Part shown: one piece after another, positions 41,711-61,115 of the stretch
How positions within the stretch are numbered: position 1 is the first letter of the stretch
Layout: each line of letters begins with the position of its first letter
Assembly: GCF_000378125.1 (NCBI RefSeq)
Contig: NZ_KB899241.1
Span: 1,897,652-1,961,651 of the forward strand
Length of the DNA: 64,000 nucleotides
Reading direction: 5' to 3'
Source: Rudaea cellulosilytica DSM 22992
GTDB lineage: Bacteria; Pseudomonadota; Gammaproteobacteria; Xanthomonadales; Rhodanobacteraceae
Notes under the pieces: model-generated
Database searches by the model: none
Told to the model about the DNA's origin: nothing
What the model saw: only the letters and a program-made list of their open reading frames with translations
Made by a program: the position numbers and the translations under genes

Positions 41711-42727
41711 TACGGGCGGGAAAGCGCGATCGAGCCACGCCGGCACTGGCAGATTTTTCGCGCGCAGGAATTCCGGATTGAAGATCTTCGCCTGGTAGCG
41801 CGCGCCCGAATCGGCAAGCACGGTGACGATGGTATGGCCCGGGCCGAGCGTGCGCGCGAGGTGGATCGCGCCGGCGACGTTGACGCCACTCGATCCACCG
41901 ACGCTGAGGCCTTCCTCGGCCATCAGCGCATGTACGAGCGGCATCGATTCGTCGTCGGCAATCGACCAGGCCAGATCGACCGGCGCGTCCCTGAAGTTCG
42001 CGGTGACGCGGCTGTAACCGATGCCTTCGGTGATCGAGCTGCCTTCGGTTTTCAACTCGCCGGTATTGACGTAGCTCGCGAGCGCGGAGCCAGCCGGGTC
42101 GGACAGCGCGATCGTGACGCCGGGTTTGTTTGCCTTGAGAAAACGGCCAACGCCGGCGAGCGTGCCGCCCGTGCCGGCAGCGCAGACGAAGCCGTCGACG
42201 CCGCCGCCGGTCTGCACGAAAATTTCCGGCCCGGTCGTCGCTTCATGCACTTCGCGGTTCGCGATGTTGTCGAACTGGTTGGCGAACCAGGCGCCGCCGG
42301 GATCACGCGCATTGAGTTCCTGCGCGCGGCGCTGCGCGGTGTGCGAGTAGTGTCCGGGATCGCTATAGAGGGCGGGTGGGACGAGCTGCACCTCGGCGCC
42401 GGTCAAGCGCAACGCGTCGATCTTCTCGCGGCTCATCGTATTTGGCATGACGATGATCGTGCGGTAGCCGCGGCTCGCGCCGAGTAGAGCGAGGCCGATG
42501 CCGGTATTGCCCGCGGTGCCCTCGACGATGATGCCGCCGGGACGCAGCGCGCCGATTTTCTCGGCGTCGAGCAGCAGGCCGAGCGCGGTGCGGTCCTTGA
42601 TCGAGCCGCCCGGATTGGCGAATTCGCACTTGGCCAGAATCTCGCAGCCGGTGAGTTCCGAGGCGCGGCGCAGGCGGATCAGCGGAGTGCGGCCGATCGT
42701 ATCGGCAAAGTCTTTGCGGATGTCCAT
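41702..42727 (-). CDS. Cysteine synthase family PLP enzyme
   Basis: A 341-residue pyridoxal-phosphate enzyme of the CysK/cystathionine beta-synthase catalytic family. The cofactor lysine is in NPGGSIKDRTALG; EGTAGNTGIGLALLG binds the substrate carboxylate and VCAAGTGGTLAGVGRFLK the phosphate. It most likely makes cysteine from O-acetylserine and sulfide. The sequence is longer at the C-terminus than classical CysK. It overlaps the exporter gene tail by 9 bases (convergent) and is divergent from cysB. No strong ribosome site is seen at 42727. Confidence 0.88.
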   Translation of the reverse strand: MDIRKDFADTIGRTPLIRLRRASELTGCEILAKCEFANPGGSIKDRTALGLLLDAEKIGALRPGGIIVEGTAGNTGIGLALLGASRGYRTIIVMPNTMSREKIDALRLTGAEVQLVPPALYSDPGHYSHTAQRRAQELNARDPGGAWFANQFDNIANREVHEATTGPEIFVQTGGGVDGFVCAAGTGGTLAGVGRFLKANKPGVTIALSDPAGSALASYVNTGELKTEGSSITEGIGYSRVTANFRDAPVDLAWSIADDESMPLVHALMAEEGLSVGGSSGVNVAGAIHLARTLGPGHTIVTVLADSGARYQAKIFNPEFLRAKNLPVPAWLDRAFPPVSG

Positions 42728-42866
42728 GCGCGAAAGGGTATTGGGAAAGGGCGGTCTTGAGAAGGAAGGCCCGGCGGGCGGCAGCCTTGAATCCCGGGCC
42801 AAAGAACACCATGCATCAGCATATTACCCGGGGTTATTAGGCAGAAACTGCCACAGAAATGGCGTA

Positions 42867-42897
42867 TTTGGCCGTCTAAACGTCTGGACGCCCAAAT
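42867..42897 (+). promoter_or_regulatory. Tandem met-box-like operator at cysB promoter
   Basis: TTTGG at 42867 leads into consecutive 8-mers GGCCGTCT (42870), AAACGTCT (42878) and GGACGCCC (42886), then AAAT. The met box bound by MetJ is AGACGTCT repeated in tandem. A TATGCT -10 lies at 42908-42913, exactly 17 bp downstream of TGGACG (42885-42890), the same geometry as at metX. The site would therefore cover the -35 of cysB. Confidence 0.65.
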
Positions 42898-43033
42898 AAC
42901 CAACAGTTATGCTGCAGAACGTCAATCGGGAGAATTCCATGGTGTTTTCGCATTCCGCTCGCTGTTGTCGCCGCCAATCCGCTGTTTCGCGCCTAGCCGA
43001 ATCCCGATTGCGACCCCCTTCGAGTACCTCGTC

Positions 43034-44029
43034 ATGACCCTGACCCAGCTCCGCTACCTCGTCGCCATTTCCGACGCCGGCCTCAACATCACCCAGGCCG
43101 CCGATCAGGTCCACGCCACCCAGCCTGGCCTGTCCAAGCAGCTCAAGCAGCTCGAGGACGAACTCGGCTTCCAGCTCTTCGCGCGCAAGGGTAAAAGTCT
43201 TTCCGCGATCACGCCCGCAGGCCAGCAGGTCATCGACCGCGCCCGCATCATCCTCGCCGAGGCGCGCAACATCCGCGCGCTGGCCGCCAACCTGCGTGGC
43301 GACGACAAGGGCGAACTGACGATCACGACCACGCACACCCAGGCGCGCTTCGTTCTGCCCCATGCGATCGCCACGCTCAAGCAGCGCTATCCGGCGGTAA
43401 ACGTGCACCTGAAGCCGCTCGGCGATGCGCAGGTCATGGGTCTGTTCGAGCGCGGCCAGGCCGACCTTGCTCTCATCTCGACCACTGGTGCCCTGCCCAG
43501 CGACGGCCTCGCCGTGCCGCTGTTCCGTTGGCGCCGCGCCGTCGTCGTACCGAATGGACACGCGCTCGCCGAATTGAAGCGGCCGCTGAAGCTGTCCGAT
43601 CTCGACGGCGAGCCGCTGGTCAGCTACGAGTCTTCGCTGCGCCCCGAGTCCTCGTTGCGCCGCGCGTTCGCCGCGGCCGGCGTCGTGCCGCGCTTCTCTT
43701 GCACCTCGCGTGACGCCGACCTGATCAAGACCTATGTGCGCGCCGGCCTTGGCGTCGGCATCTTCGCCGACCTGGCATTCACCGCGGACGATGCGCGCGA
43801 TCTGCATCAGATCGACGCCGAGGGCTTGTTCCCCGAGTGCACCACATGGCTCGTGTTGCGCCGCGACCGCGTGTTGCGCGCCTATGCGGGCACGCTGGCC
43901 GAACTGATCGCGCCGCAGATCGACCCACGCGACTTGCAGCGCGCGCTCGCCGGCGAGGAGCCGGCGCAGTGGCCGCTGCCGCCGTACTGGAGCGAGCTGC
44001 AGAAGAAGCTCGTCGCTCGCGCTGCCTGA
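43034..44029 (+). CDS. cysB: LysR-type regulator CysB
   Basis: A 331-residue LysR-family regulator. The helix-turn-helix is in the first 60 residues (MTLTQLRYLVAISDAGLNIT, ATQPGLSKQLKQLEDELGFQ). The inducer domain has TTTHTQARFVLPHAI and SCTSRDADLIKTYVRAGLGVG, signatures of CysB/Cbl. It activates sulfate uptake and reduction genes with N-acetylserine as inducer. The start at 43034 is the first ATG giving the standard N-terminus. The transcript probably has a leader of about 115 bases from the TATGCT promoter, which is overlapped by the met-box-like array. Confidence 0.95.
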   Translation: MTLTQLRYLVAISDAGLNITQAADQVHATQPGLSKQLKQLEDELGFQLFARKGKSLSAITPAGQQVIDRARIILAEARNIRALAANLRGDDKGELTITTTHTQARFVLPHAIATLKQRYPAVNVHLKPLGDAQVMGLFERGQADLALISTTGALPSDGLAVPLFRWRRAVVVPNGHALAELKRPLKLSDLDGEPLVSYESSLRPESSLRRAFAAAGVVPRFSCTSRDADLIKTYVRAGLGVGIFADLAFTADDARDLHQIDAEGLFPECTTWLVLRRDRVLRAYAGTLAELIAPQIDPRDLQRALAGEEPAQWPLPPYWSELQKKLVARAA

Positions 44030-47075: not shown

Positions 47076-48935
47076 TCAGTAGACGTCGCGAGCATAGCGG
47101 CGCTCGGCCGCGAGCTGGTTGAGGAAATCACGCGCATCTTCATCGGACTTGCCGCCGTGCTCGATCACGATGTCGCGCAGTGCCGCATCGACGTCGGCGG
47201 CCATGCGCGTGGCGTCGCCGCAAACGTAGACATGCGCGCCGTTTGCGATCCAGTCGTAGAGTTCCTTGCCGCGGCGGCGCAACGAGTGCTGCACATAGAC
47301 CTTCTCCGACTGGTCGCGCGAAAACGCGAGGTCGAGCTTGTGCAGCGTGCCGTCCTTGAGCGCCTTCTGCCATTCGACCTGGTAGAGGAAGTCGGTGCGG
47401 AAATGCGGATTGCCGAAGAACAGCCAGTTGCGGCCGCTCGCGCTGGTTTCGGCGCGTTCCTGGATGAAACCGCGGAACGGCGCTACGCCGGTGCCGGGGC
47501 CGATCATGATCACGTCGCGCGATGTGTCGGCCGGCAGGCGGAAGCGATCGTTTTCTTCGATAAAGACCGGCACGCCGGCGTCTTCCGGGAGAGTGGCCAG
47601 AAACTGTGACGCCGCGCCGACGTGCCGGGTCCCGAACTTTTCGTAGTCGAGCACTGCGACGGTGAGGTGGACTTCATCGCCGACCGCCTTCTGGCTCGAC
47701 GCGATCGAATACATGCGCGGCGCAAGCGGACGCAACGCGGCGACGAATTCGTCGGCACTCCAATCCGCAGGGAAGGCGCGCAGCACATCGATGAGCTGGT
47801 AATCGCCGAGCAGTTCGCGCAGCACGTCCCTGCCTTCGGGCAAGAGCGCGCGGTCGAGCGCTTCGCTTTTCGCGCGTTTCGCATGCTCGACGAGGAATGG
47901 CTTCGACAGCGTCGTGATCTCGCGTTTGCGCAGCAGCCATTCGCGCAGCGAATGCGATTCGGCCTGCAGGCTTACCGCGCGCTCGCCATCGAACTTCAGC
48001 AACGCCAGCAGGGCGTCGACCAGAGAGGGCGGATTCGTCGCGACCACGCCGAGCGCATCGCCCGGGTGATAGCTCAAACCCGAGCTCTCGAGCGAAAGCT
48101 CGACATGGCGGATGTCCTTGCCGCCGTCGCGTGCGCTGATACGCTGGTTCGCGAGCAGCGGCGCCGTGAACGGTTTCTCGCGCGTCCAAGCCGACGCATG
48201 CACGTGCACCGCACTGCGCAGCGGGGTGACCGTGGCCGCGCGCGGTGCGGGCGAATCGGATTTGAGCAGCTCGCGTGCTTGGTCCAGCGCCTGTTTCGAC
48301 CACGGCGCTGCGACGCTGGCGATGTCGAGATCGGCCTCGCCGCGTGCAAACAAACGGGTCGCGCCGAGTTCGGCGAGGCGCGCGTCGATCTTCGTTCCGA
48401 TCGCGCAGAACTGCGGATAGCTCGAATCGCCCAGGCCGAGCACGGCGAACTTGAGCTGCGGCAACTTCGGCGCGCGCTTGCCGGCGAGGAATTCGACGAA
48501 GCCGCGGGCGTCGTCCGGAGGATCGCCGTCGCCCTGGGTCGAAATCACGACGTAGAGCAGGCGTTCACCGGCCAGCTCGCGCGTCGCGTAGGTGTCGGCG
48601 CGGACAAGGCGGACGTTGAGTCCCGCGCCTTCGGCTTCGCGCGCGAGCGCCTCGGCCTGGCGCTTGGCGTTGCCGGTCTGGCTGCCGTAGACGATGGTCA
48701 GACGGGTTGAAACCTGCGCTTCGGCGGCCGGCGCGACGCTCGCCGGCAAGGGCACGGCCAGGTTGGCCGCGACGGCGGCGCTCAGCGGCACGTGGCGGGA
48801 GGAGGCGGCCACGCCGGCGACATAACCGGACAGCCAGTACAGCGAGTCGGTGTCCAGCCCCTCGGTCAGGCGCGCGAGCAACGCGAGCTTGTCCTCGGAA
48901 AATGGCGACAGAATGCGATTCGGTTGGGCAGACAC
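47076..48935 (-). CDS. cysJ: Sulfite reductase flavoprotein subunit
   Basis: A 619-residue diflavin reductase. An FMN flavodoxin domain ([37 protein letters not shown]) is followed by an FAD/NADPH ferredoxin-reductase domain ([44 protein letters not shown]) ending RYARDVY. It passes electrons from NADPH to CysI. First gene of cysJ-cysI-cysH. Its promoter region contains a met-box-like array 18-52 bases upstream of the start. Confidence 0.96.
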
Positions 48936-48952: not shown

Positions 48953-48987
48953 TTTGGACGGCTAGACGTCTGAATATCCAGACGCGA
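48953..48987 (-). promoter_or_regulatory. Tandem met-box-like operator upstream of cysJ
   Basis: Read on the plus strand: TTTGG, then 8-mers GGACGGCT (48956), AGACGTCT (48964, a perfect match to the met-box consensus), GAATATCC (48972) and AGACGCGA (48980). It is 18-52 bases upstream of the cysJ ATG and resembles the arrays at cysB and metX. Confidence 0.6.
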
Positions 48988-57551: not shown

Positions 57552-58447
57552 ACGCCACCGCCACGGCCGGCAGCGTGGCCTATCGCAGCGCCTTCCTGAA
57601 GATGCTCGCGGGCGCGGCGCTGATCTCGACGACCAGCATCTTCGTGCGCTACGCCCACGTCGCGCCGACCGTATCGGCGTTCTATCGCCTCGCCTTCGGT
57701 GGCGCGATGCTGCTCGGCCTGCTCATCGTGCGCGGCGAGTGGAAGCGTTTCGGTCCGCGCGACGCGCTGTGGCTGGCGGTGCCCGCGCTGGCCTTCGCCG
57801 TCGATCTGATCATGTGGCACCGGAGCATCCACTACATCGGGCCGGGCCTGGCGACGTTGATCGGCAACTTCCAGGTGTTCGTCATGGCCTTGGCCGGCGT
57901 CGTCTTCTATCGCGAGAAGCTCGGCTGGCGCTTCGCGCTCGGGCTCGCGCTGGCTGTTCTCGGCCTGTGGCTGATCGTGGGACAGGGCTGGTCGGCGCTG
58001 AGCGCGGACTATCGCCTCGGCGTTCTCCTCGGCGTGCTTACCGGCATCGCCTACGCGATCTACATGCTGACCCAGCGCCGCGCGCAACTGCGCCGGCCGG
58101 CGCTGACGCCGCAGCTGGCCCTGTGCGGAGTCAGCCTGATCTGCGCGGCGATGCTCGCCGTGGCCGTGGTCGCCGAAGGCCAGAGCTTTGCGATTCCCGA
58201 TGGCCAATCTTGGGCAGCGCTGCTCGCGCTAGCCTTCTTCGGTCAGGTGCTCGGCTGGGTGTTGATCTCGCAGGCGATGCCGGTACTGCCGGCGTCGCTG
58301 GTCGGCCTGCTCCTGCTGCTGCAACCGGGGTTGTCGTTCGTGCTCGACGTGATCCTGTTCGCGCGGCCGACGGCGTTGACGGACTGGATCGGACTCGCGC
58401 TTTCGCTGCTCGGCATCTTCGTCGCCAGCCAGCGCAGCCGCGGATAG
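57548..58447 (+). CDS. EamA-family (DMT) exporter
   Basis: A 299-residue membrane protein with ten helices in two EamA repeats (ALISTTSIFVRYAHVAPTVS, GPGLATLIGNFQVFVMALAG, then GVLTGIAYAIYMLTQRR and PVLPASLVGLLLLLQP). The GTG start at 57548 overlaps the GST stop codon by 4 bases and is preferred for that reason. The substrate is unknown. It is followed directly by the metX regulatory region. Confidence 0.85.
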   Translation: MNATATAGSVAYRSAFLKMLAGAALISTTSIFVRYAHVAPTVSAFYRLAFGGAMLLGLLIVRGEWKRFGPRDALWLAVPALAFAVDLIMWHRSIHYIGPGLATLIGNFQVFVMALAGVVFYREKLGWRFALGLALAVLGLWLIVGQGWSALSADYRLGVLLGVLTGIAYAIYMLTQRRAQLRRPALTPQLALCGVSLICAAMLAVAVVAEGQSFAIPDGQSWAALLALAFFGQVLGWVLISQAMPVLPASLVGLLLLLQPGLSFVLDVILFARPTALTDWIGLALSLLGIFVASQRSRG

Positions 58448-58458
58448 GCGTTCCAAAA

Positions 58459-58497
58459 TTTGGACGTCTAAACGCCTAAACGTCTTGACATCCAAAA
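58459..58497 (+). promoter_or_regulatory. Four-box met-box-like operator of metX
   Basis: TTTGG precedes four consecutive 8-mers GGACGTCT (58462), AAACGCCT (58470), AAACGTCT (58478) and TGACATCC (58486), then AAAA. Spacing and sequence follow the tandem AGACGTCT boxes bound by MetJ. The last box overlaps the -35 element TTGACA of metX. Confidence 0.75.
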
Positions 58498-58513
58498 TAC
58501 ACGTCCGTAGCAT
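58485..58513 (+). promoter_or_regulatory. Promoter of metX-metB
   Basis: A consensus -35 TTGACA (58485-58490) and a -10 TAGCAT (58508-58513) with the optimal 17-bp spacer. The start site would be near 58520, just before the riboswitch. Confidence 0.75.
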
Positions 58514-58522
58514 ACGCCTGTA

Positions 58523-58658
58523 CTCATCAAGACCGGCTGAGGGACAGGCCCAGCGACGCCGGGGCAACCGTCACGAAACCTGACAAGGTTCGCGATTGGT
58601 GCCAAATCCTGCGAGGTCCGCGGAAGTTTCAAGCCGCGGTGGACCCCGTAAAGATGAG
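58523..58658 (+). promoter_or_regulatory. SAM-I (S box) riboswitch in the metX leader
   Basis: The closing helix P1 pairs CTCATC (58523-58528) with GATGAG (58653-58658). The conserved core appears as CTGAGGGACAGGCCC, GCCGGGGCAACCG and GGTGCCAAATCCTGC. This matches the class I S-adenosylmethionine riboswitch. The 3' side of P1 (GAGGCGA) could instead pair with TCGTCTC at about 58685-58691, just before the metX ribosome site, which would suit a translational switch; that part is inference. Confidence 0.88.
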
Positions 58659-58702
58659 GCGAGCGCAAGATTTCCGCTGCATTCGTCTCGTTGGGGCTGT
58701 AG

Positions 58703-59731
58703 ATGAAAGACGAGACCGAAATGGGCGCCGAACCGCAAATCCACTATCACGCCGAGGCGGTCGCGCCAGCCGTGCAATGGCTGGAAGGCGAGCTCGCGCT
58801 GCCGCAATCCTTCACGCTCGAATCGGGCGCCACGCTCAGCGATGCCAAGCTGGCCTGGGCCTGCGTCGGCCCTGCCGATGCGCCGGTGATCGTCGTGCTC
58901 GGCGGCATTTCAGCACATCGGCGCCCGGTCGCGCGCGACGGCCGCGGCTGGTGGGAATCGCAGTGCGGCGCGGGCAAGGCGCTCGACACAAACCGCTATC
59001 GTATCGTCGGCATTGACTGGCTCGGCGGCTGCGATGCCTCGACCGGGCCGAAGTCGTCCGACCTTGAAGATTTTCCGGCCATCTCCACGGCCGACCAGGC
59101 TCGTGCCGTGCTCCTGCTGCTCAACCGCCTCGGCCTGCGCCGCGTGCATCTGGTCGTTGGCGCATCCTATGGCGGCAACGTCGCCCAGCAACTCGCCGCG
59201 CTGCTCGGCGAGCGCCTGCGCCATCTCGTCCTGCTCAGCGCGGCGCACAAGGCCGCGCAGTTCGGCCTCGCGCTGCGCCATGTGCAGCGCGCGATCCTCG
59301 ATCTCGGCAGCGATTCGACCGAAGCGCTCGCGTTGGCTCGCTCGCTCGCGGTGCTCGGCTATCGCACGGCGGAAGGCGTCGAGCAGCGTTTCGGCAGCGA
59401 GGCGACGCGCGATGCGCATGCCGATGGCGTGCTCGGCTGGATCGATCATCATGGCAAGAAGTTTGTGCGTCGCTTCGATGCCGACGCCTACCGTTGCCTC
59501 GGCCGCTCGCTCGACGCACACGACATCGACCCGGCCGCGGTGCGCGTGGCGACCACGTTGTTCGCCGTGCGCGAAGACCTGACCGTTCCGCTGTCGCTGC
59601 TGCGCGAATACCAGACTCGCGCCGGCGCCGCCTGCGAACTGGTCGAAATTTCCTCGGACTACGGCCACGACGCCTTCCTCAAGGAAGAGGCGATCGTGGG
59701 CGCGCTGTTCGAACGCTGTGTGCAAGTCTGA
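58703..59731 (+). CDS. metX: Homoserine O-acyltransferase (MetX family)
   Basis: A 342-residue alpha/beta-hydrolase-fold enzyme that acylates homoserine in methionine synthesis. The triad is Ser155 in VVGASYGGNVAQQ, Asp292 in VREDLTVPL and His322 in SSDYGHDAFL. MetX proteins in this group may use succinyl-CoA rather than acetyl-CoA; sequence alone does not settle it here. The start at 58703 has a weak GGGG site; 58721 is an alternative. Expression is governed by the met-box-like operator and SAM riboswitch upstream, and metB follows. Confidence 0.92.
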   Translation: MKDETEMGAEPQIHYHAEAVAPAVQWLEGELALPQSFTLESGATLSDAKLAWACVGPADAPVIVVLGGISAHRRPVARDGRGWWESQCGAGKALDTNRYRIVGIDWLGGCDASTGPKSSDLEDFPAISTADQARAVLLLLNRLGLRRVHLVVGASYGGNVAQQLAALLGERLRHLVLLSAAHKAAQFGLALRHVQRAILDLGSDSTEALALARSLAVLGYRTAEGVEQRFGSEATRDAHADGVLGWIDHHGKKFVRRFDADAYRCLGRSLDAHDIDPAAVRVATTLFAVREDLTVPLSLLREYQTRAGAACELVEISSDYGHDAFLKEEAIVGALFERCVQV

Positions 59732-59906: not shown

Positions 59907-61115
59907 GTGAGTCACGTCGCCCAGAAGCCAGCCCGCCAAGCCGCCACGATCGCCGCCCGCGCCGGCGTCGACCAGGATGCCGCGCACGGCGCCGTGATGC
60001 CGCCACTGTATCTGTCGACGAACTACAGCTTCGAAGGTTTCGGCAAGAAGCGCGAGTACGACTATTCGCGCTCGGGCAACCCGACCCGCGACGTGCTCGC
60101 CGGCGCGCTGGCCGAACTCGAGGGCGGTGTCGGTGCGGTCGTCACTGCGACCGGCATGGCCGCGATCACGCTCGTCACTTCGCAGCTTTCGCCGGATGAT
60201 CTCATCATCGTGCCGCACGACTGCTACGGCGGCAGCTATCGCCTGTTCGTCAATCAGGCCAAGCGCGGTCTGTATCGTTGCGCAGTCGTCGATTTCAACG
60301 ACACGGTGGCGCTCGCGACTGCGCTCGCGTGCAAGCCGAAGCTCGTCTGGATCGAGACGCCGAGCAACCCGCTGCTGCGCATCGTCGACATCGCCGCGGT
60401 GTCGCGCCTCGCCCATCAGGTCGATGCGCTGGTCGTGGTCGACAACACCTTCCTGTCGCCGGCGCTGCAGCAGCCGATCGCGCTCGGTGCCGACATCGTC
60501 GTGCATTCGACGACGAAGTATCTCAACGGTCATTCCGACGTCGTCGGCGGCGCGGTGATCTGGAAGGACGCCGCGGTCGGCGAGCAGCTCGCCTGGTGGT
60601 GCAACTGCCTCGGCGTGTCGGGCGGCGCGTTCGACAGCTATCTCACCTTGCGCGGCCTGCGCACGCTGCAGCCACGCCTGCGCGCACATCAGGAAAACGC
60701 CGCGGCGATCGTCGAGATTCTCGACGCGCATGCGGCCGTGGAAAAAGTCTACTTCCCGGGGTTGGCCAGCCACCCGCAGCACGCGCTCGCCGCGCGCCAG
60801 CAGCGCGGTTTCGGCGCGATGCTGAGCTTCGACCTGGTTGGCGGCGTGCCGGCGGTCGAGGCCTTCGTCAACGGCTTGCAGTCGTTCACGCTGGCCGAGT
60901 CGCTCGGCGGCGTCGAAAGCCTGGTCGCACACCCGGCGACGATGACGCATGCGGCCATGGATGCCGAGGCGCGCCGTGTCGCCGGTCTCGGCGACGGCCT
61001 GCTGCGTCTGTCGGTTGGCATCGAAGCGGTGGAGGATCTGGTTGCGGATATTGATGCGGCGTTGGATCGCGCTGCGTCCTTTCTGCCCTCACGCGCCGTA
61101 GCCAACGCGCGCTGA
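59907..61115 (+). CDS. metB: Cystathionine gamma-synthase
   Basis: A 402-residue PLP enzyme that joins acylated homoserine with cysteine to make cystathionine. The PLP lysine is Lys204 in STTKYLNGHSDVVGG; YDYSRSGNPTRDVL, ATGMAAITLV and ETPSNPLLRIVDI are family motifs. The GTG start at 59907 has GGAGA 6-10 bases upstream. A homocysteine-forming O-acylhomoserine sulfhydrylase role is a possible alternative. It is second in the metX-metB unit. Confidence 0.92.
   Translation: MSHVAQKPARQAATIAARAGVDQDAAHGAVMPPLYLSTNYSFEGFGKKREYDYSRSGNPTRDVLAGALAELEGGVGAVVTATGMAAITLVTSQLSPDDLIIVPHDCYGGSYRLFVNQAKRGLYRCAVVDFNDTVALATALACKPKLVWIETPSNPLLRIVDIAAVSRLAHQVDALVVVDNTFLSPALQQPIALGADIVVHSTTKYLNGHSDVVGGAVIWKDAAVGEQLAWWCNCLGVSGGAFDSYLTLRGLRTLQPRLRAHQENAAAIVEILDAHAAVEKVYFPGLASHPQHALAARQQRGFGAMLSFDLVGGVPAVEAFVNGLQSFTLAESLGGVESLVAHPATMTHAAMDAEARRVAGLGDGLLRLSVGIEAVEDLVADIDAALDRAASFLPSRAVANAR

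Follow-up and report, generated by a model that had tools for sequence, protein, structure and literature searches.

A predicted MetJ operator and a SAM-I riboswitch at the metX promoter of Rudaea cellulosilytica and other Rhodanobacteraceae

The metX promoter and its leader

The window, i.e., the whole 64-kb stretch of Rudaea cellulosilytica DSM 22992 DNA that was analyzed, contains metX followed by metB and, upstream of both, a predicted MetJ operator, a promoter match, and a SAM-I riboswitch. The features of the locus are:

58462..58493, + strand: predicted MetJ operator (published MetJ matrix) of four contiguous 8-bp met boxes, GGACGTCT AAACGCCT AAACGTCT TGACATCC
58485..58490, + strand: -35 element TTGACA, overlapped by the last met box
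58508..58513, + strand: candidate -10 element TAGCAT at 17-bp spacing (consensus match only)
58521..58660, + strand: SAM-I riboswitch aptamer (RF00162), full-length Rfam match, with P1 formed by 58523-58528 and 58653-58658
58653..58692, + strand: candidate anti-P1 hairpin of the expression platform, folding as an 11-bp stem
58684..58716, + strand: candidate sequestering hairpin GUCUCGU/ACGAGAC enclosing a GGGG motif and the AUG (-9.8 kcal/mol)
58703..59731, + strand: metX, encoding a MetX-type homoserine O-acyltransferase (closest model: homoserine O-succinyltransferase MetX)
59907..61115, + strand: metB, cystathionine gamma-synthase, the next gene after metX in the same direction (TIGR02080, 608 bits, cutoff 504.6)

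The best-model score of MetX (275.7 bits) was slightly below the cutoff of 296. An earlier note on this DNA had described four adjacent 8-mers resembling met boxes and a TTGACA/TAGCAT promoter with its -35 in the last of them; both the sequence and the contiguity of the 8-mers were borne out, as was the promoter at 58485-58513, which was the sole sigma-70-like match on either strand of the 1.4 kb from 57800 to 59200. The met-box reading agreed with the MetJ information matrix (PMC3228920 Table 3), as boxes 1 to 4 scored 10.35, 5.99, 10.73, and 5.48 bits and summed to 32.6 bits. A MetJ site was defined as at least two adjacent 8-bp boxes, each scoring at least one quarter of the matrix consensus score (12.58 bits) and together at least that score, such that the metX array, with four boxes and 32.6 against 12.58 bits, was classed as a predicted MetJ operator.

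Chance, or a repeat unrelated to MetJ that merely resembles met boxes, is a very improbable source of the array. The weakest boxes (5.5-6 bits) are unremarkable singly and a 16-base pattern with one mismatch matched 22 times compared to 18 with its reversed control, but the 24-base pattern gave 10 matches in the genome and 79 strand hits in eight relatives, compared to none in either case when reversed. The metX array differs from that pattern by one mismatch, arrays sit at met and cys genes of a genome that encodes MetJ, and MetJ-free families lack them. Three arrays above 19 bits were present in the window, compared to zero in 30 first-order Markov windows of equal composition.

The SAM riboswitch that the earlier note had placed in the metX leader was confirmed with the Rfam SAM-I model, scoring 65.2 bits (gathering threshold 44.4, E 6e-13) over model positions 1-108 of 108. 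It was the only SAM-I match in the R. cellulosilytica genome and ends 42 nt upstream of metX, itself followed by metB, in the leader of a methionine gene. No intrinsic terminator was found behind the metX aptamer. The candidate anti-P1 hairpin uses the 3' strand of P1 and would thereby exclude P1, and was kept (by eye) in the Rudaea-like relatives L190-L193 and L196. The candidate sequestering hairpin can form only when the anti-P1 hairpin is open, and both partner strands of the alternative hairpins were likewise retained, by eye, in Rudaea-like relatives. Family-wide, the predicted accessibility of the start region did not differ between P1 formed and P1 open (0.373 against 0.370; higher when open in 15 of 35 cases), so that folding lent no support to a sequestering hairpin shared by the family or to translational control there, in a comparison for which the automatic choice of start codon was unreliable in several genomes. 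The whole metX leader folded no better than shuffled sequences (z 0.11), which is unsurprising in a GC-rich leader that can fold in alternative ways.

MetJ and its predicted regulon

A bona fide MetJ, the repressor invoked in the earlier note, was encoded once in the R. cellulosilytica genome (L001:1396-1758, - strand) and scored 133.2 bits with PF01340 (cutoff 25), 136.6 bits with the NCBIfam equivalog NF003622 (cutoff 110), and 119 bits against the crystallized Escherichia coli repressor. Met-box sites were then sought by pattern search of the 4.34 Mb genome and of selected stretches. The 24-base pattern with three mismatches occurred at five distinct places in the genome and its reversed form at none; four of the five precede sulfur genes, namely metX, cysK/cysB-like (42870), cysJ (48956), and metE (C1:223236). 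The remaining match, at C2:860031, falls within a long, unrelated open reading frame and was put down to chance. Besides metX, the sites within the window and their genes are:

41801-42802, - strand: cysK, adjoining the array at 42870
42870..42893, + strand: second met-box array, between cysK and the cysB-like LysR gene (21.4 bits)
42965-44029, + strand: cysB-like LysR gene, adjoining the array at 42870
47802-48935, - strand: cysJ-like sulfite reductase flavoprotein gene, downstream of the array at 48956
48956..48979, + strand: third met-box array, upstream of the cysJ-like gene (23.3 bits)

The placement of arrays at cysK/cysB-like and cysJ points to MetJ control of sulfate assimilation as well in R. 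cellulosilytica. A met-box array was also observed immediately upstream of a cysB relative in genome G145 (L185). Two lower-scoring arrays, one of 18.0 bits upstream of metK and one of 15.2 bits at 165 nt upstream of metJ, were assigned by position, as the 16-base pattern that detected them does not exceed its reversed control. An array 160-200 nt upstream of metJ was found in at least 19 of 33 family genomes, supporting MetJ autoregulation. Together, these sites outline a coherent predicted MetJ regulon comprising metX, cysK/cysB, cysJ, metE, metK, and metJ itself. A further stack was observed ahead of metE (L284:337-562, from C1:223236 on), where met boxes overlap the start of a cobalamin riboswitch (108 bits).

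Across 33 MetJ proteins of the family (including those of loci L022-L037 and L108-L124; the protein of genome G198 was left out), residues K23 and T25 of the ribbon-helix-helix core, together with E59, A60, H63, and F65 (E. coli numbering), were retained without exception and the repressor cores formed one clade. The C-terminal region is unlike that of E. coli MetJ: the match of the R. cellulosilytica protein stops at profile position 83 of 97, and all 33 proteins carry in its place a Lys/Ala-rich, acid-free tail of 40-182 residues with 36-47% K+R, which was absent from the MetJ proteins of other families that were read. The tail lies outside the conserved domain, and the C-terminal region is not a defining feature of the MetJ repressor core. 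E39 and R42, the latter presumably a SAM contact, were jointly replaced, by L at 39 and by H, Y, or E at 42, in 10 of the 33 proteins from three genera (genomes G053, G074, G100, G110, G125, G140, G159, G164, G169, and G174).

These changes bear on whether the two devices at metX answer different signals, the riboswitch reading SAM (perhaps also uncharged initiator tRNA) and MetJ reading something else or depending less on SAM. The basic tail throughout the family, the 39/42 replacements, and the met leader of Xanthomonas campestris, which binds SAM, acts mainly on translation, and also senses uncharged tRNA-fMet (PMC7270179), lend this reading some weight, but it is unlikely given that the remaining core is near-identical to that of E. 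coli, including E59, A60, H63, and F65, that the tail is outside the repressor domain, and that R. cellulosilytica MetJ itself retains both E39 and R42.

Distribution in the order and operator exchange

Separate searches for MetJ and for SAM-I covered 200 genomes of the order. All 34 sampled Rhodanobacteraceae genomes encoded both, and in each of them an array of two to four boxes above the site threshold lies immediately at the -35 of the SAM-I promoter and is followed by TTGAC[AGT]. Outside the family, no met-box array was found at the SAM-I promoters of 31 readable loci (14 from Xanthomonadaceae and 17 from other families; locus G079 was left out of the promoter counts due to its ambiguous orientation). 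The earlier note had named absence of the array from close relatives as evidence against its reading, and the array was present in the whole family sample and at 8/8 close Rudaea-like and Dokdonella loci with an intact leader. Identity of metX to that of R. cellulosilytica was 82% in Rudaea sp., up to 88% in Rudaea-like MAGs, and 49% in Dokdonella immobilis. As a result of shared descent, the counts are not independent and the agreement over 34 genomes amounts to approximately one evolutionary event and not 34.

The operator (26 nt before the -35) was 74% identical between Rhodanobacteraceae genomes, compared to 27-30%, i.e., chance level, for both the 52 nt upstream of it and the -35/-10 spacer. 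This conservation argues against feedback by the riboswitch alone, with the met boxes as a weak or relict operator. The X. campestris met promoter gave no methionine response, which came from the 5'UTR in a species missing metJ (PMC6230763); that promoter has the SamR-type operator. Such an arrangement could be imagined here but is improbable at metX, where no promoter stretch other than the operator and the -35 is conserved and every family member has boxes over the site threshold. Judged from sequence, the pairing of a predicted MetJ operator with SAM-I is a trait of the Rhodanobacteraceae that is kept by selection.

In a class-wide sample of 369 genomes, MetJ was found in five, SAM-I in 10, and both in two, each of them Rhodanobacteraceae. 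A single genome from another family of the order (G113) encodes both, and no met boxes were seen before its two SAM-I riboswitches (L286 and L287), so co-presence alone does not give a stack. In genus g37 of family f9, certain genomes had only MetJ and others only SAM-I of the two, as though one had taken the place of the other.

The Xanthomonadaceae (f2; Arenimonas, Vulcaniibacterium, and Lysobacter) lack MetJ, and 13 of their 14 SAM-I promoters carried a 24-bp palindrome, ATC...GAT, the fourteenth bearing a close variant. The palindrome matches the SamR motif published by Leyn et al. (PMC4239095) and overlaps the first base of TTGACA, the same place that met boxes occupy in Rhodanobacteraceae. 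It was also found at the SAM-I promoter in single members of three further families (f4, f5, and f6) and ahead of metE in two genomes that have it at the SAM-I promoter, and was absent from the metX promoter in all 34 Rhodanobacteraceae. The samR product is an ArsR-type protein with a methyltransferase-like domain, and its gene adjoins metH. Loss of SamR had been expected in MetJ-bearing genomes and was ruled out by a homologue (61-65% identity) encoded in 34/34 Rhodanobacteraceae. The predicted metX operator shares its position relative to the -35 of the same riboswitch promoter with the SamR operator of Xanthomonadales met genes (PMC4239095), yet consists of met boxes instead of the 24-bp palindrome although samR was kept. 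The occurrence of MetJ and SamR operators at one place implies that the operator was exchanged, in either direction, while the riboswitch and the -35 stayed. The palindrome occurs more widely across the order, which suggests, without proving it, that the SamR type was the older state at the SAM-I promoter. The SamR palindrome over the -35 of SAM-I promoters represents a second repressor-plus-riboswitch stack, the halves of which are known and the combination of which is undescribed in the literature compared.

Probable two-layer control of metX

MetJ-type repressors and SAM-I-type RNAs are both established sensors of SAM. Control of the metX(-metB) promoter probably operates at two levels, each of them reading S-adenosylmethionine, the double control proposed in the earlier note being supported by the MetJ gene, the fit of the operator to the matrix, and the presence of the array at 34 of 34 family loci compared to none of 31 elsewhere. 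MetJ-SAM would polymerize on the met boxes at 58462-58493, cover the -35, and block transcription initiation. Transcripts that escape would start at approximately 58519-58521 with the SAM-I riboswitch, where SAM binding may stabilize P1 such that the metX ribosome-binding site is sequestered and translation falls. Since no intrinsic terminator follows the aptamer, the RNA most likely acts on translation, Rho or decay being possible as well; the homologous X. campestris leader, with its SAM binding and mainly translational action (PMC7270179), provides a precedent for this half of the control. With both controls acting, shut-off would be steeper and deeper than with a single device, and a quick post-initiation response would be added to a slower transcriptional one.

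This arrangement resembles several known systems in part. The X. campestris met operon likewise has a SAM-I leader on a metX-type/metB operon in the same order, with no intrinsic terminator and a -35 close upstream; it differs from that of R. cellulosilytica in the missing metJ and the methionine-unresponsive promoter, and the Xanthomonadaceae carry the SamR-type palindrome in place of met boxes. A previous study (PMC4239095) reported MetJ in six other gammaproteobacterial groups but in none of its four Xanthomonadales genomes. Tandem 8-bp met boxes and metX, metE, metK, and metJ as targets are shared with the enterobacterial MetJ regulon (PMC3228920, PMC4239095), whereas in R. cellulosilytica the predicted targets include cys genes, MetJ is basic-tailed, and metX is also a SAM-I transcript.

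In Yersinia and other bacteria, btuB has been described with met boxes upstream of a cobalamin riboswitch, and the authors inferred it to be the only gene in their set in which met boxes precede a riboswitch (PMC3228920). At metX, as at btuB, the met boxes sit where transcription starts and the riboswitch follows them in a single transcript, an architecture similar to that at R. cellulosilytica metE, but the repressor and riboswitch of btuB read different ligands and both devices at metX are expected to read SAM. Sensing of one ligand by both a protein and an RNA is known from E. coli mntP, where MntR and the yybP-ykoY riboswitch respond to Mn (PMC11647493); there both activate an exporter, in contrast to the expected repression of a biosynthetic gene at metX, and neither regulator family is shared. 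The earlier statement that no description of the combination was known holds for MetJ with SAM-I, since no account of a MetJ operator and a SAM-I riboswitch on one transcript was found in open-access full text, but not for the general stacking of a repressor on a riboswitch. As judged from the predicted sites, the novelty would be the pairing of MetJ and SAM-I for one ligand, MetJ with a cobalamin riboswitch and a protein plus riboswitch for the same ligand being known separately.

A wider scenario, which is tentative and would seem somewhat less likely than not to hold in full, is that of a family-wide, same-ligand, two-layer shut-off that arose once MetJ had supplanted the SamR operator at a riboswitch promoter of ancestral origin. 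MetJ, with its histone-H1-like basic tail, and SAM-I could then be set to different SAM ranges, or MetJ may have drifted from SAM where positions 39 and 42 changed.

For the Rhodanobacteraceae, these results extend the known range of MetJ to the family, in a form with an unusual tail. The metX transcript would constitute a natural, family-wide case of SAM-sensing protein and RNA types on one transcript, with a sister family that keeps the RNA under another operator. Paired strains make testable both what is gained from sensing one metabolite twice and how a repressor may change while the riboswitch stays.
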